Shown here: in pieces, positions 523-63,624 of the stretch | How the letters are laid out: each line of letters begins with the position of its first letter | How positions within the stretch are numbered: the first letter of the stretch is position 1 | Source of the DNA: Ornithinicoccus hortensis | GTDB lineage: Bacteria > Actinomycetota > Actinomycetes > Actinomycetales > Dermatophilaceae | DNA length: 64,000 bases | Direction of reading: 5' to 3' | NCBI RefSeq assembly: GCF_006716185.1 | Contig: NZ_VFOP01000001.1 | Location: 3,286,001 to 3,350,000 of the forward strand | Program-made: the position numbers and the translations under genes | Notes under the pieces: model-generated | Seen by the model: the letters and a program-made list of their open reading frames with translations, nothing else | Databases searched by the model: none | Told to the model about the DNA's origin: nothing

Positions 523-2751
523 ATGTCAGCCCCCCGCCGGTCCACCGATGTCCCGCCCCGGTTGGGAGTGACCCTGGACGTCGACGGCGCGTGGGTGGCC
601 GTCTTCGCCCGGCACGCCACCGCCGTCGACCTGTGCCTCTTCGACGCGGAGGGCCGGGAGCACCGGGTCCCGCTGACCCACACCGCCTACGGCATCTGGT
701 GGGACCACGTGCCCGGGATGGGACCGGGGCAGCGCTACGGCTACCGGGCGCACGGGCCGTGGTCCCCGACCGACGGCCACCGGCACAATCCCGCCAAGCT
801 GCTGCTCGACCCGTATGCCGGGGCGCTGGACGGGCAGGTCCGCTGGGGGCCGGAGGTCTACGGCCACACGGTCGACGAGCAGTGGTCGGGCGACGGCGAG
901 GTACCCGACGGACGGGACAGCTCGGCATACGTCCCGCGCTCGGTGGTGGTGGACCACTCCTTCGACTGGGGGCAGGACGTCCGGCCGGAGGTGCCCTGGT
1001 CGCAGACGGTCGTCTACGAGGCGCACGTGCGGGGGCTGACGATGCGCCACCCGGACGTGCCGGAAGAGCTGCGCGGGACCTACGCGGCGCTCGGGCACCC
1101 CGCCATCCTGGACCACCTCACCGGGCTGGGCGTGACGACGCTGGAGCTGCTGCCGGTCCACGCCTTCACCCACGAGCCGCGGCTGGTGCAGCTGGGGCTG
1201 AGCAACTACTGGGGGTACAACACCCTCGGGTTCTTCGCCCCGCACGCCCCGTATGCCGTGAGCCGGGACCCGCAGGGCGTGGTCGAGGAGGTCAAGGGTG
1301 CCGTGCGGGCGCTGCACGCCGCGGGCATCGAGGTGGTGCTCGACGTGGTCTACAACCACACCGCCGAGCAGGGCGCCGACAGCGGGGCGACGCTGAGCTG
1401 GCGCGGGCTGGACAACGCGACCTACTACCGGCTGGACGAACGGGGCCGGGACATCGACGTGACCGGCTGCGGCAACACGGTCGACCTGCGGCGTCCCATG
1501 GTGGCCAAGATGGCGCTGGACTCGTTGCGGCACTGGGTGACCGAGTACCACGTGGACGGCTTCCGGTTCGACCTGGCGCCGGCCCTGGCGCGCGGGCGGG
1601 ACGACGCCTACGACCCGGACCACGCCTTCCACGTGGCGCTGCGCACCGACCCGGTGCTGTCCCGGGTCAAGCTCATCGCCGAGCCGTGGGACATCGGCGT
1701 GCACGGCTGGCGCACCGGGCAGTTCCCGCCACCGTTCGCCGAGTGGAACGACCGGTTCCGGGACACCGTGCGCACCTTCTGGCTGGCCGACTCGGCCCGC
1801 GGGGCGGCCGGTCAGACGCGGCACGGCATCGGGGAGTTGGCCACCCGGATCACCGGCTCGGAGGACATGTTCGCGCTCGAGGACCGGGGGCCGATCGCCT
1901 CGGTGAACTACGTGACCGCCCACGACGGGTTCACGCTCGCCGACACCACGGCATACGAGGAGAAGCACAACGAGGCCAACGGCGAGGACAACCGGGACGG
2001 CCACGGCGACAACCGCAGCTGGAACCACGGCGTCGAGGGGCCCACACAGGACCCGGAGGTGCTGGCGGCGCGGCGCCGGTCGGTGCGCAACCTGCTGGCC
2101 ACCACCCTGTTCAGCGCCGGGGTGCCGATGCTGACCGCCGGCGACGAGATCGGCCGGACCCAGGGCGGGAACAACAACGCCTACTGCCAGGACAACGAGA
2201 CGAGCTGGGTGGACTGGGAGGTGTCCGCGGAGGCGGAGGACCTGCGGGCGACCGTGGCGGCGCTGACCGCGCTACGGCGGGAGCACCGTGCGCTCCGACC
2301 GGTGGACTTCCCGCGGTTCGACCCTGAGCCGGGGCGGGCCCGCGTGCGGTGGTTCGCCCCCGAGGGCCACGTGCTCAGCCCCGCGGAGTGGGCCGACCCC
2401 GCGCGCTGCACGGTGGTGGCGCTGCTGGAGGACTCCAACGGCGAGGACGACGCGGTGCTGCTGGTGCTGCACTCCGGCGCCTCGCAGATCACCGTGCGCC
2501 TGCCCGAGGTCGAGGGGCTGACCGGCGCGCAGGTGCTCTGGGACAGCACGTGGGAGCGCCCGGGCGAGGCCGTGACGGACGACATTGAAGGCGTCGACGA
2601 GGCACCAACCGGTGAAGGGGCCAACACCTTCCTGGTGGCTCCCCGATCGACGCTGTTGCTGCGCCCGCACGGCCTGGGTGCGCCGAGTGGACCCGGTATT
2701 GCCGGTTCTGAGCTGGATTCCGTGCACAACGCGTCCATTCGGGACGATTGA
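523..2751 (+). CDS. glgX: Glycogen debranching enzyme GlgX (GH13, isoamylase type)
   Basis: A 742-residue cytoplasmic enzyme that removes alpha-1,6 branches from phosphorylase-limited glycogen. The N-terminal ~150 residues form a CBM48-like domain, followed by the GH13 barrel. The four GH13 regions are visible: DVVYNHT (~D274), GFRFDLAP with the nucleophile near D350, AEPWD with the acid/base near E387, and TAHDGF with the third acid near D468. Length fits the family (~700-740). The start MSAPRR was chosen over an upstream in-frame ATG that would run through the divergent YbjN gene; it lies 7 nt after TAGGCT. It pairs functionally with the adjacent glgP (phosphorolysis plus debranching). Confidence 0.95.
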   Translation: MSAPRRSTDVPPRLGVTLDVDGAWVAVFARHATAVDLCLFDAEGREHRVPLTHTAYGIWWDHVPGMGPGQRYGYRAHGPWSPTDGHRHNPAKLLLDPYAGALDGQVRWGPEVYGHTVDEQWSGDGEVPDGRDSSAYVPRSVVVDHSFDWGQDVRPEVPWSQTVVYEAHVRGLTMRHPDVPEELRGTYAALGHPAILDHLTGLGVTTLELLPVHAFTHEPRLVQLGLSNYWGYNTLGFFAPHAPYAVSRDPQGVVEEVKGAVRALHAAGIEVVLDVVYNHTAEQGADSGATLSWRGLDNATYYRLDERGRDIDVTGCGNTVDLRRPMVAKMALDSLRHWVTEYHVDGFRFDLAPALARGRDDAYDPDHAFHVALRTDPVLSRVKLIAEPWDIGVHGWRTGQFPPPFAEWNDRFRDTVRTFWLADSARGAAGQTRHGIGELATRITGSEDMFALEDRGPIASVNYVTAHDGFTLADTTAYEEKHNEANGEDNRDGHGDNRSWNHGVEGPTQDPEVLAARRRSVRNLLATTLFSAGVPMLTAGDEIGRTQGGNNNAYCQDNETSWVDWEVSAEAEDLRATVAALTALRREHRALRPVDFPRFDPEPGRARVRWFAPEGHVLSPAEWADPARCTVVALLEDSNGEDDAVLLVLHSGASQITVRLPEVEGLTGAQVLWDSTWERPGEAVTDDIEGVDEAPTGEGANTFLVAPRSTLLLRPHGLGAPSGPGIAGSELDSVHNASIRDD

Positions 2752-2775
2752 GCCGGCTCGCGGGCAGGTGGCGGA

Positions 2776-3992: not shown

Positions 3993-6590
3993 CTACGGGT
4001 TGGCGACCAGACCCAGCTCGGCGACCGAGGACAGGAGCGGGTGGGCCGGGAGGACCCGGACGGTCCAGCCGAGGGAGCCGGTGCGGGAGAGCCGCAGATG
4101 ACCGTCGAACCGGTGCCGGCCGCCCTCGTAGGACTCGGTGAACTCCAGCGCGCTGGTCTCCACGTCGGCGAGCTCGTCGTCCTCGGAGGCGCGACCGAAG
4201 GCCACCTGGACCTGCACGTCGTCAGGGGCCAGGTCGCCCAGGGCGACGTAGGCGCGGACGGTGACGGTCTCACCGAGCTGCGGGGTGTCCCCGACGCCCT
4301 CGGCCTCGACGTGGTCGACCCGCACCTTGGGCCACTCGGCCTGCAGCCGCTGGACGTAGCCGGCCAGGCTGCGGGCCCCGGCGAAGTCCTCGCGCGAGAC
4401 GGCCCACCCGGCGCGGGCGGCCGGCAGGTAGAGGTCCTGGGTGTAGTCCCGGACCATCCGGTCGGCCATCACCTTCGGGCCCAGGGTGGACAGGGTGTGC
4501 GTGATCATCTCCAGCCACCGGGTCGGGACGCCTTGCTCGTCGCGCTCGTAGAAGGTCGGCACGACCGAGTTCTCCAGCAGGTCGTAGAGCGCGGAGGCCT
4601 CCAGGTCGTCGCGCCGCTCCGGGTCCTCGACGCCGTCGGCGGTGGGGATCGCCCACCCGTTCTGGCCGTCGAACCACTCGTCCCACCAGCCGTCCAGGAT
4701 GGACAGGTTCAGCGCGCCGTTCAGCGCCGCCTTCATCCCGGAGGTGCCGCACGCCTCGAACGGGCGCAGCGGGTTGTTCAGCCACACGTCGCACCCCGGG
4801 TAGAGCCGCTGGGCCATCGCGATGTCGTAGTTGGGCAGGAACACGATCCGCCGGCGGAACTCCGGGTCGTCGGTGAACCGCACCATCTCCTGGATGAGCT
4901 TCTTGCCGGTGTCGTCGGCCGGGTGCGCCTTGCCCGCGATGACCAGCTGCACCGGACGGTCGGGGTCGAGCAGGATCTTGGCCAGCCGCTCGGGGTCGCG
5001 CAGCATCAGGGTCAACCGCTTGTATGTCGGCACCCGCCGGGCGAAGCCGATGGTCAGCGCGTCCGGGTCGAGCACGTCGTCCACCCACCCGAGCTCCGCG
5101 GCGGTGGAGCCGCGGTGCCGCAGCGACTTGCGCAACCGGTTCCGGGCGTTGTCCACCAGCTGCTGGCGCAGCTCGCGCTTGGTCGCCCAGATCCGGTCGG
5201 CCGGCACCTGGCCGGCCCGCGGCCACGGGTCCGGACCGAAGGCCGCGTCCCCCAGGAACTCCCGGGCCAGGGACTGGACCTTGCGGTCCACCCAGGTGCC
5301 CGCGTGCACGCCGTTGGTGATCGAGCCGATCGGCACCTCGGCGTCGTCGAAGCCCGGCCACAGGCCGTTGAACATGCCGCGGGAGACCTCGCCGTGCAGC
5401 TGGGAGACGCCATTGGCCCGCTGCCCCAGCCGCAGGCCCATCACGGCCATGTTGAAGACGCCCGGGTCCCCACCGGCATACGACTCGGCACCGAGCGCCA
5501 GCAGCCGGTCGACCGGGACGCCGGGCAACTCGGCCTGGCCGCCGAAGTGCAGCTGGATCTGGTTGACCCCGAACCGGTCGATGCCGGCCGGGACCGGGGT
5601 GTGCGTGGTGAAGACCGTGCTGGCCCGCACCGCCCGCAGCGCCTCGTCGAAGCCCAGTCCGTCGCCGACCAGCTCGCTGATCCGCTCGATCCCCTGGAAG
5701 CCGGCGTGCCCCTCGTTGGTGTGGTAGACCGACGGGACGGCGGCCCCGGAGAGCCGGGACCACAGGCGCAGCGCCCGTACCCCACCGATGCCGAGCAGCA
5801 TCTCCTGCTGCAACCGCTGGTCCCCGCCACCGCCGTAGAGGCGGTCGGTCAGGTCCCGCTTGCTGGGCTCGTTGGTCTCCACGTCGGAGTCGAGCAGGAG
5901 CAGCGGCACGCGGCCGACCTGGGCCCGCCACACGTAGGCGTCCAGGTGTCCGCCGCCCGGCATGACCAGGGAGACCACGGCCGGGGTGCCGTCCTCCTCC
6001 CGGAGCATCGACAGCGGCAGGTCGTCGGGGTCCAGCACCGGGTAGGACTCCTGCTGCCACCCGTCGGCGTTGAGCCGCTGCCGGAAGTAGCCGCTCTTGT
6101 AGAACAGCCCGAGCCCGACGATCGGCACGCCGAGGTCGGAGGCCGACTTCAGGTGGTCACCGGCCAGGATGCCCAGGCCGCCGGAGTACTGCGGCAGCGC
6201 GGCGGTGATACCGAACTCCGGGGAGAAGTAGGCGATCGCCTCGGGGAAGCCCTCGGCCTGGCCCTCCTGCCCCGCCTCGCCCGCGGCCTCCGCGGCCTGG
6301 TGGTACCAGCGCGGCTCGGTCAGGTAGCGCTGCAACTCGGCACCGGCCTCCTGGACCCGGGCGACGAACCCGGCGTCGCCGGCCAACCGCTCCAGGTCCT
6401 CGGGCGCCAGCGCGCTGAGCATGGCCACCGGATCGTGCCGCACCGAGTCCCACAGCTCGGGGTCGATGCCCCGGAACAGGTCCTGCGTGGGCAGGTGCCA
6501 GCACCAGCGCAGGTTCAGGGCCAATTCGGTCAGGGGGGACAGCTCTGTCGGGAGCACGGTGCCGACATGGAGCCTACGGATCGCCTTCAC
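3993..6590 (-). CDS. glgP: Alpha-glucan (glycogen) phosphorylase, GT35 with DUF3417 N-terminus
   Basis: An 865-residue PLP enzyme that releases glucose-1-phosphate from alpha-1,4-glucans. The N-terminus (MKAIRRLHVGTVLPTELSPL..LRWCWHL) is the DUF3417 cap typical of actinobacterial and Thermotoga-type phosphorylases. The C-terminal half has the PLP site GTSGMKAALNG with the lysine near K620, and the phosphate-binding PTYKRLTLML region. Divergent from glgE across a 69-bp spacer, the conserved glgP/glgE arrangement of actinobacteria. The G1P it makes can be routed by Pgm, encoded downstream of glgE. A long open frame on the opposite strand is only a codon-bias shadow. Confidence 0.95.
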   Translation of the reverse strand: MKAIRRLHVGTVLPTELSPLTELALNLRWCWHLPTQDLFRGIDPELWDSVRHDPVAMLSALAPEDLERLAGDAGFVARVQEAGAELQRYLTEPRWYHQAAEAAGEAGQEGQAEGFPEAIAYFSPEFGITAALPQYSGGLGILAGDHLKSASDLGVPIVGLGLFYKSGYFRQRLNADGWQQESYPVLDPDDLPLSMLREEDGTPAVVSLVMPGGGHLDAYVWRAQVGRVPLLLLDSDVETNEPSKRDLTDRLYGGGGDQRLQQEMLLGIGGVRALRLWSRLSGAAVPSVYHTNEGHAGFQGIERISELVGDGLGFDEALRAVRASTVFTTHTPVPAGIDRFGVNQIQLHFGGQAELPGVPVDRLLALGAESYAGGDPGVFNMAVMGLRLGQRANGVSQLHGEVSRGMFNGLWPGFDDAEVPIGSITNGVHAGTWVDRKVQSLAREFLGDAAFGPDPWPRAGQVPADRIWATKRELRQQLVDNARNRLRKSLRHRGSTAAELGWVDDVLDPDALTIGFARRVPTYKRLTLMLRDPERLAKILLDPDRPVQLVIAGKAHPADDTGKKLIQEMVRFTDDPEFRRRIVFLPNYDIAMAQRLYPGCDVWLNNPLRPFEACGTSGMKAALNGALNLSILDGWWDEWFDGQNGWAIPTADGVEDPERRDDLEASALYDLLENSVVPTFYERDEQGVPTRWLEMITHTLSTLGPKVMADRMVRDYTQDLYLPAARAGWAVSREDFAGARSLAGYVQRLQAEWPKVRVDHVEAEGVGDTPQLGETVTVRAYVALGDLAPDDVQVQVAFGRASEDDELADVETSALEFTESYEGGRHRFDGHLRLSRTGSLGWTVRVLPAHPLLSSVAELGLVANP

Positions 6591-6659: not shown

Positions 6660-8744
6660 GTGACCGAACGCCACGCCACCGAGGCGACCCCCGCCACGCC
6701 CATCGACCGGCACTCCCTGACCCTGGTCGGACAGACCCCGATCGGCCGGATCCCGGTCCAGTCCGTCTCCCCCGCCGTCGACGGCGGCCTGCGACCCACC
6801 AAGTCCGTGGTCAACGAGCTGTTCCCGCTCACCGCGACGGTGTTCCGCGAGGGACACGACGCGGTGAACGCGACGGCGGTGCTCACCGACCCCGACGGGA
6901 CCGAGCACCACGTCCGGATGCACCTGGTGAACCCGGGCCTGAACCACTGGCGCACCGAGGTGTATGCCGACCGCCCGGGGGTGTGGTCCTACCGGGTCGA
7001 GGGGTGGAGCGACCCCTACGGCACCTGGCGGCACGACGCCACGATCAAGGTCGAGGCCGGGGTCGACGTCGAGCTGATGCTCGAGGAGGGCGCCCGGGTG
7101 CTCGAGCGGGCCCGCACCGAGGTGGACCGCTCCCCCGAGCAGGACACCCTGCTGACGGACGCCGTCACCGCGCTGCGCGACACCGACCGGCCCGTCAAGG
7201 CGCGGCTGGCCGCCGGCACCGGGCCCGACGTGGTCGAGCTGTTGCAGGCCGCACCGTTGCGGGACATGGTCAGCCCGTCCGCGGACCACGCCTGGTGGGT
7301 GGAGCGGCCGCTGGCCCTCACCGGCGCCTGGTACGAGATCTTCCCCCGCTCCGAGGGCGCCACCCAGGACCCGACGACCGGGCTCTGGACCAGCGGCACC
7401 TTCACCACCGCCGCCGAGCGGCTGCCCGCGATCGCGGGGATGGGCTTCGACGTGGTCTACCTGACCCCGGTCCACCCGATCGGCCGGATCAACCGCAAGG
7501 GCCGCAACAACACCCTCGACGCCCAGGAGCACGACCCCGGGTCCCCGTATGCGATCGGCGCCGAGGAGGGCGGGCACGACGCGCTGCACCCCGAGCTCGG
7601 CGACTGGGACGACTTCGACGCCTTCGTCGCCCGGGCCGGCGAGCTGGGCCTGGAGGTGGCGCTGGACCTGGCGCTGCAGGCCGCTCCCGACCACCCGTGG
7701 GTCACCGAGCACCCGGAGTTCTTCACTACCCGCGCGGACGGCACCATCGCCTACGCGGAGAACCCCCCGAAGAAGTACCAGGACATCTACCCGCTCAACT
7801 TCGACAACGACCCCGCGGCGATCTACGCCGAGGTGCGACGAGTCGTCCAGGTGTGGATCGACCACGGCGTCAAGGTGTTCCGGGTCGACAACCCGCACAC
7901 CAAGCCGGTCGAGTTCTGGCAGTGGCTGATCGCCGACGTCGCGGTGGACCACCCCGACGTGATCTGGCTGGCCGAGGCGTTCACCAAGCCGGCGATGATG
8001 CACACGCTGGCCAAGGTCGGCTTCCAGCAGTCCTACACCTACTACGCGTGGCGCAACTCGGCATACGAACTGCGCGAGTACGTCACCGAGCTGGCCGGCG
8101 ACGCGGCGACCTACATGCGGCCGTCGTTCTGGCCGACCACGCACGACATCCTCACGCCTTACATGCAGTACGGCGGACCCACCGCGTTCATCCTGCGGGC
8201 CGCGCTCGCCGCGACGCTGGTGCCGACCTACGGCATCTACACCGGCTACGAGCACTGCGAGCACGTGGCCCGGCCCGGCGCCGAGGAGCACGTCGACAAC
8301 GAGAAGTACGAGTTCAAGAACCGTCGGTGGGACCTGGACGGCGAGTGGGAGGGCACCGGCGAGGCCCAGGGCCGGCGCAACCTGGCGCCGTTCCTGACCC
8401 GGTTCAACCAGATCCGGCGCGAGCACCCGGCGCTGCACTGGTTGCGCAACATCCACTTCCACGCCGCGGACGACGAGAACTTCCTGGTCTTCTCCAAACG
8501 CGGCGGCGGGGCCCACGACGGGTCGGACCAGGACGTGATCATCGTGGTGGCCAACCTGGACCCGCACTCGACCCGGGACACCCACGTCCACCTGGACATG
8601 CCGGCGCTCGGGCTGGGCTGGCACGACGGCTTCGTCGCCCAGGACCTGCTCACCGGCGACCAGTGGCAGTGGAGCGCGCACAACTACGTGCGGCTCGGCG
8701 CCGAGGGTCTGCCCGTCCACATCATCCACGCACGGAGGTTCTGA
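6660..8744 (+). CDS. glgE: Alpha-1,4-glucan:maltose-1-phosphate maltosyltransferase GlgE
   Basis: A 694-residue GH13_3 enzyme that transfers maltosyl units from maltose-1-phosphate to growing alpha-glucan. The N-terminal beta-sandwich (~40-180) is followed by the barrel: GFDVVYLTPVHPIG, the FRVDNPHTKP motif with the nucleophile near D410, and LAEAFTKP with the acid/base near E439, matching the S. coelicolor enzyme (D394/E423) with a constant offset. The frame is open for a further ~980 codons upstream, but that stretch lies antisense to glgP; the GTG start (VTERHATE) gives the family's usual length and sits behind a -10-like box. First gene of the glgE-treS-mak/glgB-pgm operon; treS starts directly after its stop, with a GGAGG site inside the glgE end. 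Confidence 0.95.
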   Translation: MTERHATEATPATPIDRHSLTLVGQTPIGRIPVQSVSPAVDGGLRPTKSVVNELFPLTATVFREGHDAVNATAVLTDPDGTEHHVRMHLVNPGLNHWRTEVYADRPGVWSYRVEGWSDPYGTWRHDATIKVEAGVDVELMLEEGARVLERARTEVDRSPEQDTLLTDAVTALRDTDRPVKARLAAGTGPDVVELLQAAPLRDMVSPSADHAWWVERPLALTGAWYEIFPRSEGATQDPTTGLWTSGTFTTAAERLPAIAGMGFDVVYLTPVHPIGRINRKGRNNTLDAQEHDPGSPYAIGAEEGGHDALHPELGDWDDFDAFVARAGELGLEVALDLALQAAPDHPWVTEHPEFFTTRADGTIAYAENPPKKYQDIYPLNFDNDPAAIYAEVRRVVQVWIDHGVKVFRVDNPHTKPVEFWQWLIADVAVDHPDVIWLAEAFTKPAMMHTLAKVGFQQSYTYYAWRNSAYELREYVTELAGDAATYMRPSFWPTTHDILTPYMQYGGPTAFILRAALAATLVPTYGIYTGYEHCEHVARPGAEEHVDNEKYEFKNRRWDLDGEWEGTGEAQGRRNLAPFLTRFNQIRREHPALHWLRNIHFHAADDENFLVFSKRGGGAHDGSDQDVIIVVANLDPHSTRDTHVHLDMPALGLGWHDGFVAQDLLTGDQWQWSAHNYVRLGAEGLPVHIIHARRF

Positions 8745-10466
8745 ATGCAGCTGCGGGGACTCAACCTGCACCAACCCGGCTTGAAGAACGACCCGGACTG
8801 GTTCAAGAAGGCGGTCTTCTACGAGGTGCTGGTGCGCGCCTTCGACGACTCGACCGGCTCGGGGTCGGGCGACTTCGGCGGGCTGATCAACCGGCTCGAC
8901 TACCTGCAGTGGCTCGGCGTGGACTGCCTGTGGCTGCCGCCGTTCTACGCCTCGCCGCTGCGCGACGGCGGCTACGACGTGGCGGACTACACGGCGGTGC
9001 TGGCCGAGTTCGGCACGCTGCCGGACTTCCAGGAGCTGATCTCCCAGGCGCACGCCCGCGGCATCCGGATCATCACCGACCTGGTGATGAACCACACCTC
9101 CGACCAGCACCCGTGGTTCCAGGCCTCCCGGTCCGACCCGGAGGGACCGTTCGGCGACTTCTACGTCTGGTCCGACACCGACGACCGGTATGCCGACGCC
9201 CGGATCATCTTCGTGGACACCGAGGTCTCCAACTGGACCTTCGACCCGGTCCGCCGGCAGTTCTTCTGGCACCGCTTCTTCTCCCACCAGCCGGACCTGA
9301 ACTTCGAGAACGAGGCCGTCCAGGAGGCGATGTTCGACGTCGTCCGGTTCTGGATGGACATGGGCATCGACGGGTTCCGGCTGGACGCGGTCCCCTACCT
9401 GTTCGAGGAGGAGGGCACCAACTGCGAGAACCTCCCCCGCACCCACGAGTTCCTGGCCAAGCTGCGCGCGATGGTCGACGCCGAGTACCCCGGCCGGGTG
9501 CTGCTGGCCGAGGCCAACCAGCTGCCCGCCGAGGTGGTCGACTACTTCGGCACCCCGGAGGCGCCGGAGTGCCACATGTGCTTCCACTTCCCGGTGATGC
9601 CCCGGCTCTACTACGCGCTGCGCGAGGAGAAGGCCGAGCCGATCCGCACCGTGCTGGAGGAGACCCCGGACATCCCGGAGGGCACCCAGTGGGGCACCTT
9701 CCTGCGCAACCACGACGAGCTGACCCTGGAGATGGTCACGCCCGAGGAGCGCAGCGCGATGTACGGCTGGTACGCCCCGGACCCCCGGATGCGGGCCAAC
9801 ATCGGCATCCGGCGGCGGCTCGCGCCGCTGCTGGACAACTCCCGCGAGGAGATCGAGCTGATCAACGCGCTGCTGTTGAGCCTGCCCGGCTCGCCCTGCC
9901 TCTACTACGGGGACGAGATCGGGATGGGCGACAACATCTGGCTGCAGGACCGGGACGCGGTCCGCACCCCGATGCAGTGGACCCCTGACCGCAACGCCGG
10001 CTTCTCCACCGCCGACCCGGGCAAGCTCTACCTGCCGGTCGTCTCCAGCCTCGTCTACCACTTCGGCGGGGTGAACGTCGAGGCCCAGATGGCCACCGGG
10101 TCCTCGCTGCTGTACTGGATGCGCGGCATGCTGCAGGTCCGGTCCCGGCACGCGGTCTTCGGGCTCGGCGAGTTCCACCTGTGCGAGTCCGACAACGAGG
10201 CGATCCTGCCGTTCGTGCGGGTGCTGCCGGCCTCGGTGAACCCCGAGGAGGTGGAGGGGCACCCCGCCGTGCTCTGCGTGCACAACCTGTCCTCCCGCCC
10301 CCAGGCCGCCCGGATCCTGCTGCCGGAGGCGCTGCGCGGGGCCGACGCGGTCGACCTGTTCGGCGGCACGGGCTTCCCTCACGTCGCCAGTGATGGGACC
10401 ATCCAGCTCACCATGGGTTCCCGAGACTTCTTCTGGCTCGGCCTGACCCCTGACCAAGGAGTGTGA
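8745..10466 (+). CDS. treS: Trehalose synthase / maltose alpha-D-glucosyltransferase TreS
   Basis: A 573-residue GH13_16 enzyme interconverting trehalose and maltose; in the GlgE pathway it supplies maltose for the kinase. The conserved start ([15 protein letters not shown]), [27 protein letters not shown] with nucleophile near D214, LLAEANQ with acid/base near E256 and [10 protein letters not shown] with D324 are all present. Stand-alone TreS without a C-terminal maltokinase; the kinase is instead fused to the next enzyme. The ATG follows the glgE stop with no gap, with GGAGG 6 nt upstream, indicating translational coupling. Confidence 0.95.
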
Positions 10467-14477: not shown

Positions 14478-16139
<1,662 letters not shown>

Positions 16140-36876: not shown

Positions 36877-36930
36877 ATCTCGCCTCTTTCTTCAGCCGTC
36901 GGTGGGTGGTGGGGCAGTGCTTCCGGTATG

Positions 36931-36960
36931 CCGGGTGGTCGCCTTCGCGGGACCACCCGG
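36931..36960. terminator. Intra-operon hairpin between atpA and atpG
   Basis: Perfect 10-bp inverted repeat CCGGGTGGTC / GACCACCCGG around a 10-nt loop, next to a GTATGCCG octamer. It lies inside the atp operon, so it may be an mRNA processing or stability element rather than a full terminator. Confidence 0.5.
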
Positions 36961-48903: not shown

Positions 48904-50019
48904 GTCGCCGAGCACCTCGTCCAGCCCGACCGCCGCGATCCCGGTCGCCTCGCCGACCGGCCCGTTGGCGAGCTGGCCGGCGTGGGTGTTGAGGCCGGCG
49001 GCGAGGGACCGGTCCTCCCGGCATGCCCGGACCCACCCCTTCTCCGCCAACGCCACGGCATACGGCAGGGTGGCGTTAGTCAGCGCGTAGGTCGAGGTGT
49101 GCGGCACCGCCCCGGGCATGTTGGCCACGCAGTAGAAGGTCGAGTTGTGCACCCCGAAGGTGGGGTCGGTGTGCGTCGTCGGGTGCGTGTCCTCGAAGCA
49201 GCCGCCCTGGTCCACCGAGATGTCGACCAGCACCGACCCGGGCCTCATCTGGGCGACCAGGTCGTTGCTCACCAACCGGGGAGTCCGCGCGCCCGGCAAC
49301 AGCACCGCCCCGATGACGAGGTCGGCCTGCCGCACCTGTTCCTCGATCGCCAGCCGTGACGAGGCCAGGCCGTGGACCCGGTTGTCGTAGCGCCAGAAGG
49401 ACATCCGCAGCTTGTCGAGGTCGGTGTCGAGCATCGTCACGTCGGCCCCCATCCCGAGGGCGATGTTCGCGGCGTTCTGCCCGGAGACCCCCGCGCCGAT
49501 GACCACGACCTTGGCGTTGGCCACCCCGCCCACGCCGCCCAGCAGCACACCGCGGCCGCCGCGGGCCTTGAGCAGCTCGTGCGCCCCGACCTGCGGAGCC
49601 AGGCAGCCCGCGACCTCGGACATCGGGTACAGGAGCGGCAGCGCCCCGGACGGCAGCTGGACGGTCTCGTAGGCGATCCCGGTCACCCTGCGGTCCAGCA
49701 GCTCCCGGGTGAGGGGCTCATTGGCGGCCAGGTGCAGGTAGGTGAACAGCACCAGCCCCTCGCGCAGCAGCGGGTACTCCTCGGCGACCGGCTCCTTGAC
49801 CTTGAGGACCATGTCGGCACCGGACCAGACCGACTCCGCGTCCGGCACCAGCCGGGCCCCGGCCGCGGCGTAGTCCTCGTCGGGGACCGCCGACCCCTCA
49901 CCGGCCCCGGCCTGGACGAGCACCTCGTGCCCCCGGTCCACCAACTCGTGCACGCCGGTGGGAGTGATCGCCACGCGGTACTCGTGATCCTTGACCTCTT
50001 CGGGTATGCCGATCCGCAT
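48901..50019 (-). CDS. ald: Alanine dehydrogenase
   Basis: A 372-residue NAD-dependent enzyme converting L-alanine and pyruvate/ammonia. [20 protein letters not shown] opens the protein, [17 protein letters not shown] and [17 protein letters not shown] follow, the Rossmann motif is [28 protein letters not shown], and [22 protein letters not shown] closes the active site. AGGAG lies ~5 nt upstream, directly preceded by a palindrome that may be an operator. Confidence 0.96.
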
Positions 50020-50396: not shown

Positions 50397-50516
50397 CGGT
50401 GTCCGTCCCTCCCGGCAACCCGGCGGGCCCCCGTCGACCCCGCCCGGCCACCGTACCGCGGGAGCGGGTCGTATGCCGTGACGCAGCAGCAAGGCAACGG
50501 CTCCTCCGTCCCCGGG

Positions 50517-52344: not shown

Positions 52345-52375
52345 TTGTGTCTCATGAGAGTCAATTGTGTTTCAT
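52345..52375. promoter_or_regulatory. Direct repeats TTGTGTYTCAT, candidate TetR operator
   Basis: TTGTGTCTCAT and TTGTGTTTCAT start 20 bp apart (two helical turns) between the divergent ABC exporter and tetR. The palindrome CTCATGAG overlaps the first copy. The second copy overlaps the likely tetR -35 (TTGTGT). Suits dual control by the TetR protein. Confidence 0.55.
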
Positions 52376-52390
52376 AACGAACCTACGTTG

Positions 52391-52396
52391 TATTGT
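52391..52396 (+). promoter_or_regulatory. -10-like box of tetR, leaderless
   Basis: TATTGT ends 6 nt before the ATG; TTGTGT lies upstream as a possible -35. No Shine-Dalgarno precedes the ATG. Confidence 0.45.
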
Positions 52397-52402
52397 GCCG
52401 CC

Positions 52403-53040: not shown

Positions 53041-53098
53041 CCTGTATGCCGTGTGGCCCGGTCCCCCACCTGGGGAACCGGGCCGCACGGCATACAGG
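53041..53098. terminator. Bidirectional terminator of rho and tetR built on inverted GTATGCCG
   Basis: Arms of 26 and 27 nt with one mismatch and one bulge enclose a 5-nt loop. Each outer arm begins CCTGTATGCCGTG, so the stem is formed by two inverted copies of the window's over-represented octamer. It lies between the convergent tetR and rho stops. Confidence 0.85.
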
Positions 53099-55383: not shown

Positions 55384-56187
55384 ATGAGCAGCCACAGTCA
55401 GTCCCCCGCCCACGACGGCACCGCCTCCGGCCACCTCAGCGGTCGTCATGCCCTGGTGACCGGCGGTGGTGGTGGCCTGGGCACCGCCATCGCCCTCCGG
55501 CTGGCCAAGGACGGTGCGGCCATCACCCTCGCCGACATCGACGCGGACAAGATGGAGCCGGTCGCCGCGCAGGTCCGCGAGCTGGGCGTCCCCTGCGAGA
55601 CCTGGCAGCTGGACCTGTCCGACGTCGCCGCCCAGTCCGAGCTCACGCTCGAGTTCGACATCCTGGTGAACAACGCCGGGATCCAGCACGTGGCCCCCAT
55701 CCACGAGTTCCCGGTGGACCGGTGGGAGCTGATCCAGCGCCTCATGGTCACCTCGCCGTTCCTGCTCATCCGGGCGTGCCTGCCGCATATGTATGCCGGG
55801 GGTTACGGCCGGATCGTCAACATCTCCTCGGCCCACGGGTTGCGGGCCAGCGAGTTCAAGTCCGCCTACGTCGCGGCTAAGCACGGCCTGGAGGGACTGT
55901 CCAAGGTCACCGCGCTGGAGGGCGCCAACAAGGGCGTCACCAGCATGTGCATCAACCCCGGCTACGTCTGGACCCCGCTGGTGGCCGCCCAGGTCAAGGA
56001 CCAGGCCGTGGCCCACAACATGAGCGAGGACGAGGTGGCCGAGAAGGTCATGCTGGCGGCGCAGCCCCTCAAGGAGTTCGCCACCCCCGAGGCGATCGCC
56101 GAGGCCGTCGCCTACTGCACGAACCCCTACAGCAGCTCGGTTACCGGGACGAACATCGTCGTGGACGGGGCCTGGACCGCGCGCTGA
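55384..56187 (+). CDS. 3-hydroxybutyrate dehydrogenase-like SDR
   Basis: A 267-residue short-chain dehydrogenase. Cofactor motif TGGGGGLGTAIALRL, NNAG in ILVNNAGIQHVAPI, catalytic NISSAHG and YVAAKHG. The combination GIQHVAPI and SAHGLRASEFKSAYVAAKHGLEGLSK and the Trp/Lys pattern point to D-3-hydroxybutyrate dehydrogenase, converting 3-hydroxybutyrate and acetoacetate. The place between rho and hom is normally held by thrC-thrB in actinobacteria. Ends before repeat element copy A. Confidence 0.85.
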   Translation: MSSHSQSPAHDGTASGHLSGRHALVTGGGGGLGTAIALRLAKDGAAITLADIDADKMEPVAAQVRELGVPCETWQLDLSDVAAQSELTLEFDILVNNAGIQHVAPIHEFPVDRWELIQRLMVTSPFLLIRACLPHMYAGGYGRIVNISSAHGLRASEFKSAYVAAKHGLEGLSKVTALEGANKGVTSMCINPGYVWTPLVAAQVKDQAVAHNMSEDEVAEKVMLAAQPLKEFATPEAIAEAVAYCTNPYSSSVTGTNIVVDGAWTAR

Positions 56188-58887: not shown

Positions 58888-59000
58888 GGGTCACTCCTGC
58901 GTCGGGTTCGTCGGTTGGGTCGGTCGGTTCGGGTCGGTCTCGTATGGGGTCGGTCTCGTCCAGCGAGGGTATGCCGGATGGTCGGGTCGGCGGGTCCCGG

Positions 59001-60647
59001 TCACATCCGCTCGGGCGCGGTCACGCCCAGCAGGCCGAGTCCGTTGGCCAGCACCTGCCGGGTGGCGTCGTTGAGCCAGAGCCGGGTGCGGTGCAGGTCG
59101 GTGATCTCCTCGTCGACGTCGACCGGGCGGACCCGGCACTCGACATACCAGGTGTGGAAGTGCCCGGCCAGCTCCTCCAGGTACCGGGCGACCCGGTGCG
59201 GCTCGCGGAGCCGGGCCGCCTGCGCCACGACCCGGGGGAAGTCGCCGAGGGCGGCCAGCAGCGCCGCCTCGGTGGGGTGGGCCAGCAGCGCCGGGTCGAA
59301 GCCCCCGTCGCGGTCCACCCCGTCCTCGGCGGCGAGCTTGGCCACGTTGCAGGTGCGGGCGTGGGCGTACTGCACGTAGAAGACCGGGTTGTCGTTGGAC
59401 CGCTTGCGCAGCTCCTCCCCGTCCAGGTCCAGCGGGGAGTCCGCCGGGTAGCGGGCCAGCGAGTAGCGCACCGGGTCCGAGCCGATCCACTCCAGCAGGT
59501 CGGTGAGGAAGACCGCGTTGCCGCGGCGCTTGCCCATCCGCTCGCCCGAGATGTTGATCAGCTGGCCGATGAGGACCTCGATGTTGGTCGCGGGGTCGTC
59601 GCCGGCGCACGCCGCGATCGCCTTCAACCGGCCCACGTAGCCGTGGTGGTCGGCGCCGAGCATGTAGACCTTCTGCGGGAAGCCGCGGTCCTTCTTGCTC
59701 AGGTAGTAGGCGGCGTCCGAGGCGAAGTAGGTGGGCTCGCCGTTGGCCCGGATCAGGACCCGGTCGCGGTCGTCACCGAAGTCGGTGGTGCGCAGCCAGA
59801 CGGCGCCCTCGGCGTCGAAGACGTGGCCCTGCTCACGCAGCCGCGCCACCGCCCGCTCGACCTCCCCGGAGTCGTGCAGCGACTTCTCCGAGAACCACAC
59901 GTCGAACTCGACCCGGAACTCCTCCAGGGTGTCCTTGATCTGCTGGAGCTGCAGCTCGTAGCCCCGGGCCCGCGCCAGCGCGGTGGCCTCGGCGTCCGGC
60001 AGGTCCAGCAGGTCGGGACGCTCGGTCAGGAGCCGGGTCGCCAGGTCCTCGATCCACTCCCCCGCGTAGCCGCCCTCGGGCACCTCGGCGCCGCGCGCGC
60101 GGGCCACGATCGAGGCACCGAACTTGTCCATCTGGGAGCCGGCGTCGTTGATGTAGTGCTCGGCGGTGACCCGTGCCCCGCTGGCCTGGAGGAGCCGGCG
60201 TAGGGCGTCGCCCAGGGCCGCCCACCGGGTGTGCCCGATGTGCAGCGGCCCGGTCGGGTTGGCCGAGACGAACTCTAGGTTGATCACCTGGCCGTCGAGC
60301 GCGTCGTTGGTGCCGTATGCCGTGCCCGCCGCCACGATGGTCCGCGCCAGTTCGCCGGCGCTCCCCGCGTCGAGCCGGATGTTGAGGAAGCCGGGGCCCG
60401 CGACGTCGACGCCCGCGACCCCGTCCACCGCGTCCAGGCGGCCGGCGAGGTGGGTGGCCAGCTCTCGCGGCGGCATCCCGGCGGCCTTGGCCAGCTGCAG
60501 CGCGACGTTGGTCGTCCAGTCCCCGTGCTCCTGGCTCCGGGGTCGCTCCACGCGCACCTCGCGGGGCACCTCGACGGCGAGGTCGCCGGCGGCGACGGCC
60601 TGCTCGAGGGCGGCGGTGATGGCAGCAGCGAGTTGCTCAGGGGTCAC
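59001..60647 (-). CDS. argS: Arginyl-tRNA synthetase
   Basis: A 548-residue class I synthetase. Add-1 domain at ~1-100, HIGH motif in SANPTGPLHIGHTRWAALGDALRR, KMSKS-equivalent in SGERMGKRRGN, and the anticodon-binding helices at the end (RVARYLEELAGHFHTWYVECRV). GTG start (VTPEQLAAAITAALE) preferred to an upstream in-frame ATG that would run antisense through the tRNA gene. A tRNA-Arg gene lies ~100 bp away on the opposite strand. Confidence 0.95.
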   Translation of the reverse strand: MTPEQLAAAITAALEQAVAAGDLAVEVPREVRVERPRSQEHGDWTTNVALQLAKAAGMPPRELATHLAGRLDAVDGVAGVDVAGPGFLNIRLDAGSAGELARTIVAAGTAYGTNDALDGQVINLEFVSANPTGPLHIGHTRWAALGDALRRLLQASGARVTAEHYINDAGSQMDKFGASIVARARGAEVPEGGYAGEWIEDLATRLLTERPDLLDLPDAEATALARARGYELQLQQIKDTLEEFRVEFDVWFSEKSLHDSGEVERAVARLREQGHVFDAEGAVWLRTTDFGDDRDRVLIRANGEPTYFASDAAYYLSKKDRGFPQKVYMLGADHHGYVGRLKAIAACAGDDPATNIEVLIGQLINISGERMGKRRGNAVFLTDLLEWIGSDPVRYSLARYPADSPLDLDGEELRKRSNDNPVFYVQYAHARTCNVAKLAAEDGVDRDGGFDPALLAHPTEAALLAALGDFPRVVAQAARLREPHRVARYLEELAGHFHTWYVECRVRPVDVDEEITDLHRTRLWLNDATRQVLANGLGLLGVTAPERM

Positions 60648-61113: not shown

Positions 61114-62538
61114 ATGGAGACCACGCAGTCCTGGATCAACGGTGAGTCCGTGCCCAGCGCCGACACCTACGACAACGTCGACCCGGCCACCGGCCGGACC
61201 ATCGGGTTGGTCGCGCGGGCGGGCGCCGACGAGGTCGACCGGGCGGTCGCGGCGGCCGCGGCGGCGCAGCCGGCCTGGGCGGACACCTCCCCCGAGGAGC
61301 GCTCCGAGCTGCTCGAGCGCTGGGCAGCGACCGTGGAGCGGGAGGCCGAGCAGCTGGCACGCTGGGAGTGCGAGGACACCGGCAAGCCGCTCAGCCAGGC
61401 ACGCGCCGACGCCCGGACCGCGGCCCGCTACCTGCGCTACTACGCCCACGTGGTCGAGGCGTTCTACGGGATCACCATCCCCAAGGGCGCCGACCTGCAC
61501 GCCTACACGCGGCGCGAGCCGTTCGGCGTGGTCGGGTCGGTCGTCGCCTGGAACTACCCGCTGCAGCTCGCCTCCCGCACCCTGGCCGCGGCCGCGGTGA
61601 CCGGCAACGGCATCGTGCTCAAGCCCGCCGACGAGACCCCGCGCACGACCGTCGCCCTCGCCCGGTATGCCGTGGAGGCGGGTCTGCCCGCCGGTCTCGT
61701 CAACGTGGTGACCGGGATCGGGGCCGAGGCCGGGGCGGCGCTGACCGCGCACGAGGGCGTCTCCCAGCTGAGCTTCGTGGGGTCGACCACGATCGGCTCG
61801 CAGATCGCCCACGCCGCCGCCGAGCGGGTGGTCCCGACGGTGCTGGAACTGGGCGGCAAGTCGGCCCAGGTGGTCTTCGCCGACGCCGACCTCGAGGCCG
61901 CCGCGGAGGCGGTGGCCCGCGGCGTGCTGCAGAACGCCGGCCAGACCTGCTCGGCCGGCTCCCGGCTGCTGGTGCACGCCGACGTCCACGACGAGTTGGT
62001 CAGCAAGGTGGTCCAGCGGCTGGAGGGCACCACGATCGGTCCCGGTCTGGACGACCCCGACCTGGGCCCGCTGGTCTCGGCCAAGCAGTGGGAGCGGGTC
62101 TCCAGCTTCTTCACCGACCTGGGCCAGGGCGAGGTCCTCACCGGCGGCGGACGCCCCGCGGACGAGGCGCTCGCCGAGGGCGCCTACTTCGCCCCCACCG
62201 TCGTCGACGGTGTCGACCCGCACAGCCGGATCGCGCAGGAGGAGGTCTTCGGACCGGTCCTGGCGGCGATGACCTTCACCGACGAGGACGAGGCGGTCGC
62301 GCTGGCCAACTCCACCGAATACGGCCTGCTCGCCGCGCTGTGGACCCGCGACCTGAGCCGCGCGCACCGGTTGGCCGGCCGGGTGCGCGCCGGTCAGGTC
62401 TTCGTCAACAACTACGGCGCGGGCGGCGGCGTGGACCTGCCGTTCGGCGGGTTCGGCAAGTCGGGCTACGGCCGGGAGAAGGGCCTGGAGGCCCTCGAGT
62501 CCTTCACCCAGACCAAGACCGTCGTGATCAAGTTGTGA
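61114..62538 (+). CDS. NAD(P)-dependent aldehyde dehydrogenase (aminobutyraldehyde/betaine-aldehyde-like)
   Basis: A 474-residue ALDH-superfamily enzyme. SWINGESVPSADTYDNVDPATG start, VVAWNYPLQLASRTLAAA, FVGSTTIGSQIAHAA, LELGGKSAQVVFADADLE (catalytic Glu), NAGQTCSAGSRLLVH (nucleophile Cys), EEVFGPVLAAMTF and FGGFGKSGYGREKGLEAL. The family includes gamma-aminobutyraldehyde and betaine aldehyde dehydrogenases; the exact substrate is unknown. Only moderately similar by eye to the other ALDH in the window, so not a recent duplicate. Confidence 0.9.
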   Translation: METTQSWINGESVPSADTYDNVDPATGRTIGLVARAGADEVDRAVAAAAAAQPAWADTSPEERSELLERWAATVEREAEQLARWECEDTGKPLSQARADARTAARYLRYYAHVVEAFYGITIPKGADLHAYTRREPFGVVGSVVAWNYPLQLASRTLAAAAVTGNGIVLKPADETPRTTVALARYAVEAGLPAGLVNVVTGIGAEAGAALTAHEGVSQLSFVGSTTIGSQIAHAAAERVVPTVLELGGKSAQVVFADADLEAAAEAVARGVLQNAGQTCSAGSRLLVHADVHDELVSKVVQRLEGTTIGPGLDDPDLGPLVSAKQWERVSSFFTDLGQGEVLTGGGRPADEALAEGAYFAPTVVDGVDPHSRIAQEEVFGPVLAAMTFTDEDEAVALANSTEYGLLAALWTRDLSRAHRLAGRVRAGQVFVNNYGAGGGVDLPFGGFGKSGYGREKGLEALESFTQTKTVVIKL

Positions 62539-62598
62539 GTCCGGCCGGATCGACATACCTGCTGCGCCGCACCGGACGAGAATGTTCTACTGGCTGAC

Positions 62599-63624
62599 AT
62601 GACCGACGCGACCGCGCCCCCGGCGCCGCCACCGTCCGCGCCACCCGGCACCGCGATCGAGGTCGAGGGGCTGTCCAAGAAGTTCGGGGACTTCGCCGCC
62701 GTCGACGACCTCTCCTTCCGCGTCCAGCCCGGACGGATCACCGGGTTCCTCGGCCCGAACGGCGCCGGCAAGACCACGACCCTGCGGATGTTGCTGGGCC
62801 TGATCCGGCCCTCCGCCGGACGCGGGTTGATCGGGGGGCAGCGGTATGCCGACCTGCCGGCCCCGCTCTCGACCGTCGGCGCAGCGCTCGAGGCCACCAA
62901 CTTCCACCCCGGGCGGACGGGTCGCAACCACCTGCGGGTGCTGGCGGCCACGCACCGCATCCCCGACGCCAGGGTCGACGAACTCCTGGAGCTGGTGGGG
63001 ATCCCCGCGGCCGCGCGCAAGCGGGCCGGGGGTTACTCGATGGGTATGCGGCAGCGGCTCGGTCTCGCGGCCGCCCTCCTCGGCGACCCGGACGTGCTGA
63101 TCCTGGACGAGCCGGCCAACGGCCTGGACCCCGAGGGGATCCGCTGGCTGCGGGGGCTGCTGCGGCACCTGGCCGGCGGCGGCAAGACCATCCTCGTCTC
63201 CTCGCACCTGCTCAGCGAGGTGGAGCAGACGGTCGACGACGTCGTGATCATCGCGAACGGCCAGCTGGTCCGGCAGGGCTCCATGGACGACCTGCACGGG
63301 GACCCCAACACGCTGCTGCGCACGTCCGACGCCGACCGGCTGCTGCGGATGCTGCGCGAGGGCGGGTTCACCGCCGACCACAGCCCCGAGCACGGTCCCG
63401 GGGCGCTGCGCGTGGTCGGGGACGACATGGTGCGGATCGGCGACCTCGCGCTCGCCGGGGGTGCCCCGGTCCACGAGATGCGCACGCTGCGCACCGACCT
63501 GGAGCGCCTCTACTTCGAACTCACCGAGTCCCCGCAGCACCAGAACCGCAACCGGGCCGGGGCCGGCCCGGGTCCCGAAGGGGTAGGACCGATGAACACC
63601 GTCGACGGGGAGGACCAGCGATGA
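62599..63624 (+). CDS. ABC transporter ATP-binding protein
   Basis: A 341-residue ATPase. Pro-rich N-terminal tail, then IEVEGLSKKFGDFAAVDDLSFRV, Walker A GPNGAGKTTT, signature YSMGMRQRL (MG in place of SG, as in the CcmA/NatA-like class), Walker B VLILDEPANGLDP and H-loop SSHLLSE. The ~90-residue C-terminal extension is of the type found in multidrug/bacitracin-type ATPases. Overlaps the permease gene by ATGA. Confidence 0.9.
   Translation: MTDATAPPAPPPSAPPGTAIEVEGLSKKFGDFAAVDDLSFRVQPGRITGFLGPNGAGKTTTLRMLLGLIRPSAGRGLIGGQRYADLPAPLSTVGAALEATNFHPGRTGRNHLRVLAATHRIPDARVDELLELVGIPAAARKRAGGYSMGMRQRLGLAAALLGDPDVLILDEPANGLDPEGIRWLRGLLRHLAGGGKTILVSSHLLSEVEQTVDDVVIIANGQLVRQGSMDDLHGDPNTLLRTSDADRLLRMLREGGFTADHSPEHGPGALRVVGDDMVRIGDLALAGGAPVHEMRTLRTDLERLYFELTESPQHQNRNRAGAGPGPEGVGPMNTVDGEDQR

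Follow-up and report, generated by a model that had tools for sequence, protein, structure and literature searches.

Self-recognising DNA uptake by means of a short sequence has been described for the Neisseriaceae and the Pasteurellaceae (PMC7811141). Genomes of N. meningitidis and N. gonorrhoeae carry about 1,900 copies each of the DUS of the Neisseriaceae, which occurs in within-family dialects that agree with phylogeny and forms inverted pairs tied to terminators (PMC3630211); it is reported as highly conserved among genomes closer to one another than those compared here, as absent from recently acquired genes, and as including many new sites whose divergence exceeds what point mutation would produce (PMC2397512). 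The USS of the Pasteurellaceae is biased to gene ends. Reading frames of both Pasteurellaceae and Neisseriae show one orientation more often than the other (PMC2346458).

Here we describe the octamer GTATGCCG of a Gram-positive soil actinobacterium related to Ornithinimicrobium. The octamer is probably a DNA-uptake-sequence-like self tag that a Tad/Com machine would serve. It shares with DUS the copy number, the dialects, the inverted pairs and a scarcity in those pieces of mobile DNA that were examined, and with USS the density; it is a different word in a different lineage from USS. It differs from DUS in several respects: the word is unrelated, with an 8 bp core plus W-G in place of 10-12 bp; it occurs in a Gram-positive actinobacterium that has com and tad genes but gave no PilT match above the cut-off; sites are modestly conserved, whereas those of Neisseria are reported as highly conserved; and its role in uptake is putative.

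Abundance and arrangement of the octamer

The window, i.e. the whole 64 kb stretch of DNA that was analysed, contains 37 exact copies of GTATGCCG on both strands (Table 1), as compared with a mean of 0.98 and a largest value of 3 in 100 dinucleotide-preserving shuffles. Our recount returned the same figures as the first-pass annotation, namely 39 copies of the heptamer GTATGCC/GGCATAC, 37 of which carry the final G; its orientation counts of 24 versus 15 resolve into 23 versus 14 octamers plus two other heptamers. The whole genome (3,935,242 bases, 3.94 Mb) contains 1,865 copies, 939 forward and 926 reverse, and the letters of GTATGCCG read backwards, our control, occur 126 + 123 times; this control is itself partly built from the motif, as 18 of its 30 copies in a 464 kb sample lie inside GCCGTATGCCG. 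In that sample (the window and twenty evenly spaced 20 kb stretches), a second-order Markov model predicts 9.0 copies of GTATGCCG against 213 observed, and 0.47 copies of the extended word GTATGCCGTG against 67 observed; the extended consensus is GTATGCCG-W-G. The octamer is thus over-represented on both strands, as had been claimed, and like an uptake sequence it reaches hundreds to thousands of copies above a composition- and codon-matched background in genes and spacers alike, with a density in kin DNA of about one per 2 kb.

Table 1. Copies of GTATGCCG in the 64 kb window
Feature	Position	Strand	Basis
GTATGCCG copy	813..820	+	exact match
GTATGCCG copy	923..930	-	exact match
GTATGCCG copy	1251..1258	+	exact match
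GTATGCCG copy	1949..1956	-	exact match
GTATGCCG copy	5474..5481	-	exact match
GTATGCCG copy	6962..6969	+	exact match
GTATGCCG copy	8059..8066	-	exact match
GTATGCCG copy	9188..9195	+	exact match
GTATGCCG copy	10534..10541	+	exact match
GTATGCCG copy	11434..11441	+	exact match
GTATGCCG copy	13524..13531	-	exact match
GTATGCCG copy	15091..15098	-	exact match
GTATGCCG copy	15794..15801	+	exact match
GTATGCCG copy	16624..16631	+	exact match
GTATGCCG copy	17779..17786	+	exact match
GTATGCCG copy	20520..20527	+	exact match
GTATGCCG copy	23738..23745	+	exact match
GTATGCCG copy	28585..28592	-	exact match
GTATGCCG copy, called intergenic	29903..29910	+	exact match, gene calls
GTATGCCG copy	30390..30397	-	exact match
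GTATGCCG copy	31193..31200	+	exact match
GTATGCCG copy, called intergenic	36926..36933	+	exact match, gene calls
GTATGCCG copy	43187..43194	-	exact match
GTATGCCG copy	45022..45029	+	exact match
GTATGCCG copy	47101..47108	-	exact match
GTATGCCG copy	48212..48219	-	exact match
GTATGCCG copy	49056..49063	-	exact match
GTATGCCG copy	50004..50011	+	exact match
GTATGCCG copy, called intergenic	50471..50478	+	exact match, gene calls
GTATGCCG copy	51254..51261	-	exact match
Inverted GTATGCCG pair, predicted long hairpin	53044..53095	53044-53051 +, 53088-53095 -	exact match, fold
GTATGCCG copy	55791..55798	+	exact match
GTATGCCG copy, called intergenic	58969..58976	+	exact match, gene calls
GTATGCCG copy	60315..60322	+	exact match
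GTATGCCG copy	61665..61672	+	exact match
GTATGCCG copy	62844..62851	+	exact match

Genes in the 464 kb sample were called with our own simple codon-usage caller, not a published one (381 genes, 86.8% coding). Coding sequence holds 175 copies, as compared with a mean of 16.6 and a maximum of 30 in 100 synonymous-codon shuffles that kept codon use per gene; intergenic DNA holds 37 copies in 61.5 kb against 2.1 expected, and one copy spans a gene boundary. Twenty-one control words went through five such shuffles: GCCGTATG, the word reversed, showed a 5.5-fold excess, and 20 random letter orders gave 0.21 to 2.0. As in the reading frames of Pasteurellaceae and Neisseriae (PMC2346458), one orientation is commoner in genes, the sense orientation accounting for 117 of the 175 coding copies. 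The first-pass annotation had staked its case on an excess that survives a codon model and extends beyond genes; in this sample it does both, and is driven neither by codon use nor by composition.

Close motif pairs number 42 overall against about 25 predicted from site density, only a moderate excess. In a count of close pairs (at most 60 bp) that dropped two doubled regions, loci L257 and L141, the arrangement is uneven: convergent "+-" pairs number 21 and "-+" pairs 8 (p 0.024), and perfect stems of at least 11 bp occur in 10 of the 21 "+-" pairs and in none of the 8 "-+" pairs. The pair at 53044..53095 sits between convergent genes, a TetR-like gene (52367-52978, +) and rho (53117-55087, -); its fold of -58.4 kcal/mol on the + strand (z -9.8) and -59.4 on the - strand (z -8.9) suggests one long terminator-like hairpin. 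Inverted pairs as terminator-like hairpins, a feature of uptake sequences, are thus found here as predicted folds.

Dialects, mobile DNA and site turnover

Comparison with related genomes, which the first-pass annotation had recommended, revealed enrichment of GTATGCCG in 22 of 41 sampled genera of one family (71 family genomes), with up to 4,724 copies in one relative (G037), and one-base dialects in six further genera, rich in GTACGCCG, GGATGCCG or GTATGCGG. GTACGCCG has 3,903, 2,216 and 1,359 copies in G070, G053 and G054 (reversed controls, 310, 143 and 167); GGATGCCG has 3,949 and 3,816 in G056 and G046 (289 and 392); and GTATGCGG has 1,204 in G050 (107). The first two words were counted in 40 genomes and GTATGCGG in 37. 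In a TadA-1 tree, a single-protein tree that is only partly resolved, G070, G053 and G054 share a clade that also takes in a motif-free genome and some of the GTATGCCG genera, and G056 and G046 are sisters within a GTATGCCG group; on this tree the single-base dialects of related genera follow phylogeny, as those of uptake sequences do. The word CGAAGGGG of G067 and G068 falls outside the one-base variants of GTATGCCG, and GGATGCCG is only mildly raised in G031. Microbacteriaceae-type genomes contain 249 copies of GGATGCCG against 53 expected (28 named loci; the count series used 52 of 80 named loci, 28 + 24).

Uptake sequences are scarce in recently acquired DNA, and the same is seen in one island stretch of the genome itself, with no copy of GTATGCCG in 20 kb, and in four inserts within comEC or tadA-1 of relatives, with 4 copies against 32.7 expected.

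Congeners are only ~80% identical, and 24 of 111 window sites are identical in them, no better than any 8-mer (23.5-25.1%); in the reverse direction, 24 of 65 congener sites are identical in the window. Gapped comparisons were dropped, which left 111 for conservation and, after a flank filter, 108 for turnover. Differing sites were at least three bases off in half of these 108 comparisons, versus 24% for random 8-mers, a turnover that resembles the divergent new sites of DUS. Where the window carries the motif, the single differences in the congener are C at position 1 (10), G at position 4 (7) and others (5); where the congener carries it, those in the window are G at position 2 (6), G at position 4 (5) and C at position 4 (2).

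Genome-maintenance signals and other rivals

The octamer could also be a Chi-like site of recombination, at which a helicase-nuclease (AdnAB or RecBCD) protecting and repairing the cell's own DNA would act as the reader. Chi sites are octamers scattered along the chromosome and Chi words vary between species; GTATGCCG is a dense octamer too, scarce in the mobile DNA examined, and its own genome has RecC. However, among 37 genomes 18 of the 24 motif-rich ones gave no RecC match and 8 of the 12 motif-free ones gave one, an association in the inverse sense (p 0.029 with G049 left out, kinship not corrected for). Moreover, the best two-arc split places 57.3% of the 213 sampled sites on one replicative strand (origin not located) versus a null mean of 56.9%: within the power of 213 sites, neither the leading-strand skew of Chi nor the strong skew of KOPS towards dif is seen, and the octamer, like an uptake sequence, lies in both orientations without replication-strand bias. 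We know of no hairpin-forming inverted pairs as a Chi trait. Such pairs are a published trait of DUS (PMC3630211). As the missing strand bias and the RecC gaps argue against KOPS and RecBCD-Chi, we reject the latter and consider a Chi-like site in general unlikely.

A HIP1-like word, upheld by a bias of DNA modification or mismatch repair (orphan methyltransferase, Vsr-like conversion), is decidedly unlikely. HIP1 of cyanobacteria, the palindromic octamer GCGATCGC, is over-represented genome-wide in one lineage, and GTATGCCG is similarly family-restricted, genome-wide and on both strands; in addition, the C-to-T precursor GTACGCCG is scarce in two GTATGCCG-rich congeners, G006 with 58 copies (reversed control, 134) and G010 with 33 (reversed control, 160). 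Yet GTATGCCG differs from its reverse complement and is therefore not a palindrome, and unlike HIP1 it comes with one-base dialects and with pairs that form hairpins; orthologous sites that differ at a single base do so in several ways; GTACGCCG numbers only 166 to 535 in motif-free relatives, whereas motif copies reach thousands; and the neighbour GGATGCCG is not depleted in the genome itself or in the two motif-rich congeners counted. With too few precursors and several kinds of site difference, C-to-T change at GTACGCCG is rejected as the sole origin.

The presence of GTATGCCG in 20 of the 21 sampled stretches would suit a binding site of a nucleoid-associated or segregation protein (KOPS/parS/matS-like), but the near-random gaps between sites (CV 0.91) and the missing KOPS-like skew would not, and such a site, which we regard as very improbable, leaves the one-base dialects, the convergent hairpins and the scarcity in inserted elements unexplained. 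Lastly, most genic copies specify Tyr-Ala when in the sense orientation and Ala-Tyr when in the antisense one, but a by-product of codon-pair or amino-acid preference is hardly conceivable given the 10-fold excess after synonymous shuffling and is refuted for the intergenic copies by their 17-fold excess.

Transformation machinery and the proposed uptake tag

The first-pass annotation had proposed a DNA uptake or genome-maintenance signal. The uptake half gains from the dialects, the hairpin pairs, the scarcity in the mobile DNA examined and the com/tad genes; the maintenance half loses from the lack of a detected strand bias and of a palindrome and from the RecC gaps. We therefore return to the uptake tag and to the machine that would serve it.

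The genome encodes components of a transformation machine, namely comEA-comEC and two tad clusters. In the transformable Micrococcus luteus, which has two tad clusters of similar order as well as comEA-comEC, tad deletions leave little or no transformation (PMC4322843); the second tad cluster here differs in having other ORFs between tadC and the Flp-like gene. The term "uptake sequence" is absent from the portions of the M. luteus literature covered by a search by term. Type IVa PilT, part of the pilus in the DUS-ComP system of the Neisseriaceae, gave no match over the cut-off in the genome itself (G000). ComEC and PilT were searched in 63 of the 71 family genomes, eight less complete ones being left out, and PilT exceeded the cut-off in one of the 63, with fragments in one more.

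ComEC and full-length TadA-1 are kept in relatives without a clear motif (G032, G038, G039, G040 and G066; also G031), so that having the machine is no predictor of the tag. The motif-rich genomes include two with no ComEC match (G023 and G064, both in at least 570 contigs), one with a partial match only (G014) and two with an interrupted comEC (G002 and G017). For the motif-poor congener G022, in which loss of comEC was considered as the reason, the comEC match is located at a contig end and shows a change of frame close to it. Of 38 genomes, four gave no intact TadA-1, and none of these has GTATGCCG or a one-base dialect: it is missing from 4 of 12 motif-free genomes versus 0 of 25 others (p 0.0075, kinship not corrected for; G058 left out, the weak G049 among the others, G036 a fragmented assembly). 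Gene presence or absence singled out no receptor, the tad-1 set being complete in several motif-free genomes too, nor did profiles, which, owing to sequence divergence, failed to recover the tad-2 minor pilins and ComEA whole.

We propose that tagged extracellular double-stranded DNA would be bound by a sequence-specific cell-surface receptor, for which ComEA and the pseudopilins encoded in the two Tad/Flp clusters are candidates. The tad machine would then pull the DNA in, and a single strand would cross ComEC and be recombined. Kin DNA would thereby be preferred over foreign DNA because it carries the tag about every 2 kb. Preferential uptake and recombination of tagged fragments would spread and keep the tag, through molecular drive and/or selection; recently arrived elements would stay untagged; and a drift of receptor specificity would shift the tag by one base and create a new dialect.

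No actinobacterial uptake sequence is described in the open-access literature searched, in line with the first-pass annotation, which knew of none. We see an even chance that GTATGCCG, GTACGCCG, GGATGCCG and GTATGCGG in one family, with GGATGCCG also in Microbacteriaceae-type genomes, represent an unrecognised system of uptake-sequence dialects across Gram-positive actinobacteria, with a Tad/Flp or ComEA receptor and no type IVa pilin. If so, monoderm bacteria would have arrived independently, and by means of another machine, at self-DNA recognition in transformation, and the tagging of own DNA, here with Tad in place of type IVa machinery, would be a repeated solution. The four dialects, the losses and the elements inserted in comEC and tadA offer natural comparisons that could help to find the receptor and to tell drive from selection in the spread of the tag. 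Many soil actinobacterial genera would then likely be transformable, which would be useful for the genetics of strains that are hard to engineer.

Abundance of the octamer in genes and between them

The window contains 37 copies of the octamer GTATGCCG, where about one is expected. In the genome (a single contig of 3,935,242 bases, of which the window covers 3,286,001-3,350,000) there are 1,865, divided 939 to 926 between the strands, which bears out the over-representation in both orientations described in the first-pass annotation. In a 464 kb sample (the window plus twenty evenly spaced 20 kb stretches), W and then G are favoured at the two positions that follow; the extended form GTATGCCGTG is found 67 times, where 0.47 would be expected. 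A variant with one letter changed, GTATGTCG, is found 37 times against 4.3, an 8.6-fold excess from which we judge that T may be tolerated at position 6.

The excess persists over a codon-aware background and outside genes. The 381 called genes of the sample hold 175 copies, compared with 16.6 (maximum 30) in 100 shuffles of synonymous codons within genes, and 61.5 kb of intergenic DNA holds 37 copies against 2.1 expected (0.60 per kb, compared with 0.43 within genes). Among 21 control words, the reversed word was up 5.5-fold, with 18 of its 30 copies in the sample lying within GCCGTATGCCG, and 20 random letter orders ranged from 0.21 to 2.0. Most coding copies encode Tyr-Ala if sense and Ala-Tyr if antisense, and sense copies outnumber antisense copies by 117 to 58.

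Site pairs at most 60 bp apart, counted in 22 genome sets with the dialect of each, comprise 21 convergent and 8 divergent pairs, with 9 and 1 in the two tandem arrangements; perfect stems of at least 11 bp occur in 10 of the 21 convergent pairs and in none of the divergent ones. Orientation and stems carry more weight than closeness as such: close pairs, doubled regions included, number only 42 against about 25 predicted in sum from site density. The window's inverted pair (see table) has a predicted fold of -58.4 kcal/mol (z -9.8), and stands outside the ten perfect stems owing to a wobble at the eleventh base pair.

A second dispersed repeat, approximately CTGCAGGATTATCGGGTnACCCGATAATCCTG, is palindromic and REP-like; the word CAGGATTATC has 16 copies in the 464 kb sample, every one of them in DNA called intergenic, and none in the 80 kb inspected per genome in five congeners. 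Another palindrome, ATGATCAT, occurs 14 times against 0.4 expected in 21.7 kb of Phytoactinopolyspora limicola (locus L218).

Distribution, dialects and site turnover

We counted GTATGCCG in 117 genomes of the order, covering the genus, 41 genera of the organism's own family (f1) and 19 other families. Within the genus, 30 of 31 genomes are rich in the motif (394 to 1,901 copies); the sole exception, G022 (50 copies), has all genes of the first tad cluster (tad-1), and its comEC match is cut off where the contig ends, the frame changing close to that point. In f1, 22 of the 41 genera are rich, three are weak (g17, g20 and g21) and 16 are not rich, and the maximum among the 46 genomes of the other families is 167 copies, in a genome with 184 of the reversed control. 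Likewise, in a class-wide draw of 295 genomes, high counts of GTATGCCGTG are confined to f1 (573 copies in the organism's own genome, 565 in G062, 170 in G371, 111 in G339 and 110 in G065; 1 to 4 in three other f1 genomes), the highest count outside f1 being 22, with a control of 19. The scanned collection, from which own-genome records were possibly left out, has Ornithinimicrobium pekingense as the closest named relative by ArgS, at 79% identity; Nostocoides, Knoellia and Phycicoccus come next (73-75%). Named loci around argS contain 9 copies of GTATGCCG in O. pekingense, 15 and 17 in two Knoellia and 12 in one MAG, and zero in Nostocoides sp. Soil756, two Phycicoccus, Mobilicoccus and Janibacter.

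Ranking of 8-mers in 53-67 kb from each of 19 GTATGCCG-poor genomes revealed one-base dialects: in six genera the top-enriched words equal, or overlap, a single-base variant of GTATGCCG, as whole-genome counts bear out. GTACGCCG reaches 3,903 in G070, 2,216 in G053, 1,359 in G054 and a weaker 752 in G049 (33 to 590 in 36 others); GGATGCCG reaches 3,949 in G056, 3,816 in G046 and a milder 1,336 in G031 (260 to 1,027 in 37 others); and GTATGCGG reaches 1,204 in G050 (next highest 459, in G048). Reversed-word controls for the six main dialect genomes are 107 to 392. G067 and G068, from two genera, share CGAAGGGG instead; the word in G036 is doubtful; and the samples of G022, G031, G032, G038, G039, G040, G043, G044 and G066 gave no clear enriched word. 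CGAAGGGG occurs 60 times against 7.7 expected in L052-L054 (G067), 33 against 5.1 in L104-L106 (G068) and 12 against 1.2 in L161 (Janibacter corallicola). In G032, contig 17 (129291-130273) carries GTATGCGG in 17 repeats with a period of 60-61 bases, resembling a CRISPR or tandem array.

In a tree built from the TadA-1 proteins of 25 genomes, 8 of whose 22 inner branches are weak, one clade unites the three GTACGCCG genera and G049; three GTATGCCG genera and one motif-free genome also belong to it. The two GGATGCCG genera come out as sisters nested in a GTATGCCG group. GGATGCCG, identical to an f1 dialect, is also enriched in 28 argS loci that we take, from record titles, to be of Microbacteriaceae type (249 against 53 expected; control GCCGTAGG, 22 against 22), and ranks first among the 8-mers of seven (L184, L192, L194, L197, L198, L202 and L209). 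A further 24 named loci from outside f1 give 77 against 58; coming from loci of a single chromosomal neighbourhood, this is a lead only.

Aligned to five congeners at about 80% identity, window sites are identical in 24 of 111 comparisons (any 8-mer, 23.5-25.1%), and in the reverse view 24 of 65 congener sites are identical in the window, somewhat above the 8-mer background. Sites that are not identical differ unusually strongly: at least three positions are changed in half of 108 site comparisons, against 24% of random 8-mers, and flanks are slightly more divergent (77% vs. 80%). This multi-base divergence is supportive only, because the same sites enter several comparisons and more differences are to be expected for any rare word. 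According to PMC2397512, Neisseria uptake sequences are highly conserved, and many new ones, in permissive core regions, are too divergent for point mutation; the sites here are similarly divergent where non-identical, but high conservation is not seen at about 80% identity.

Transformation genes, insertions and a putative self tag

Features of the window and of the genome
Feature	Position	Remarks
Inverted motif pair	53044/53088 (window)	between a TetR-like gene and rho, convergent genes
REP-like repeat	56214, 56276/56295, 60875/60894 (window)
comEA and comEC	1,587,857-1,591,335 (genome)	SLBB + helix-hairpin-helix; Competence + metallo-beta-lactamase
tad cluster 1	1,917,151-1,921,755 (genome)	two small proteins without Pfam match
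tad cluster 2	3,668,912-3,675,194 (genome)	Flp-like DUF4244 protein; other ORFs separate tadC from the Flp-like gene

Of the com and type IV pilus genes to which the first-pass annotation pointed, comEA, comEC and two tad clusters are present (TadE- and TadG-like matches in the second being slightly below cut-offs), but PilT exceeds the cut-off in only one of 63 genomes, G055; G035 has fragments of it. Of these 63 genomes, 61 have a ComEC match; the two without, G023 and G064, are motif-rich assemblies of 570 or more contigs. In Micrococcus luteus, according to PMC4322843, comEA/comEC homologues are present and tad deletions end transformation (that of tadB nearly so). Full-length TadA-1 orthologs occur in 29 of 38 genomes and split or partial ones in five; an intact TadA-1 was not found in G036, G043, G044 and G067, four genomes that lack both the word and its one-base dialects. 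Several other motif-free genomes retain TadA-1, and the machine is thus not sufficient.

comEC is split by a prophage-like insert of about 40 kb in congeners G002 (L273) and G017 (L274), where the 20 kb read of each carries phage genes: among eight proteins examined, both inserts have a tape measure, that of G002 also head proteins and that of G017 an endolysin. Other inserts split tadA-1 in three genera (G065, L275; G037, L276; G058, C23). The comEC inserts and those of G065 and G037 hold 4 copies of the motif against 32.7 predicted from genome density, three of the four densities coming from rounded genome sizes. tadC-1 is apparently cut in two more genera, G056 (L242) and G050 (L244), and together with the split tadA-1 this makes competence genes look like recurrent insertion targets, in line with the intragenomic-conflict idea of PMC4774983. 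A 20 kb stretch at 1.80 Mb of the organism's own genome has zero copies of GTATGCCG; it encodes an integrase of phage type and, as judged by eye, transposase-like genes, and the G+C content of most of its genes is 62-70%.

The chief rival reading is a candidate Chi-like site read by AdnAB. Replicative-strand bias, raised in the first-pass annotation, was not detected: the best two-arc split of the chromosome, fitted without an origin position, places 57.3% of the sampled sites on the same replicative strand (null mean 56.9%). Among 37 f1 genomes, RecC occurs in 6 of 24 motif-rich and 8 of 12 motif-free ones (p = 0.029, no kinship correction; the weak, RecC-positive G049 left out).

We consider it fairly probable that GTATGCCG is an uptake-type self tag. 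In scale, balance between the strands, one-base dialects, hairpins from convergent pairs, sense bias, rarity in the mobile DNA examined and presence of transformation genes, it matches the profile of published uptake sequences (DUS/USS; PMC3630211, PMC2397512 and PMC2346458). High site conservation also belongs to this profile, and was not evident in the comparisons at about 80% identity. We know of no other repeat class with all the matching traits together. The annotation knew of no described actinobacterial uptake sequence, and none was found in the mainly open-access literature searched, M. luteus papers and a review included. The gene set suggests Tad/Com, not a PilT-driven type IVa pilus, as the candidate uptake route, and the putative tag would therefore be a variant that falls outside the Neisseria DUS-ComP system.
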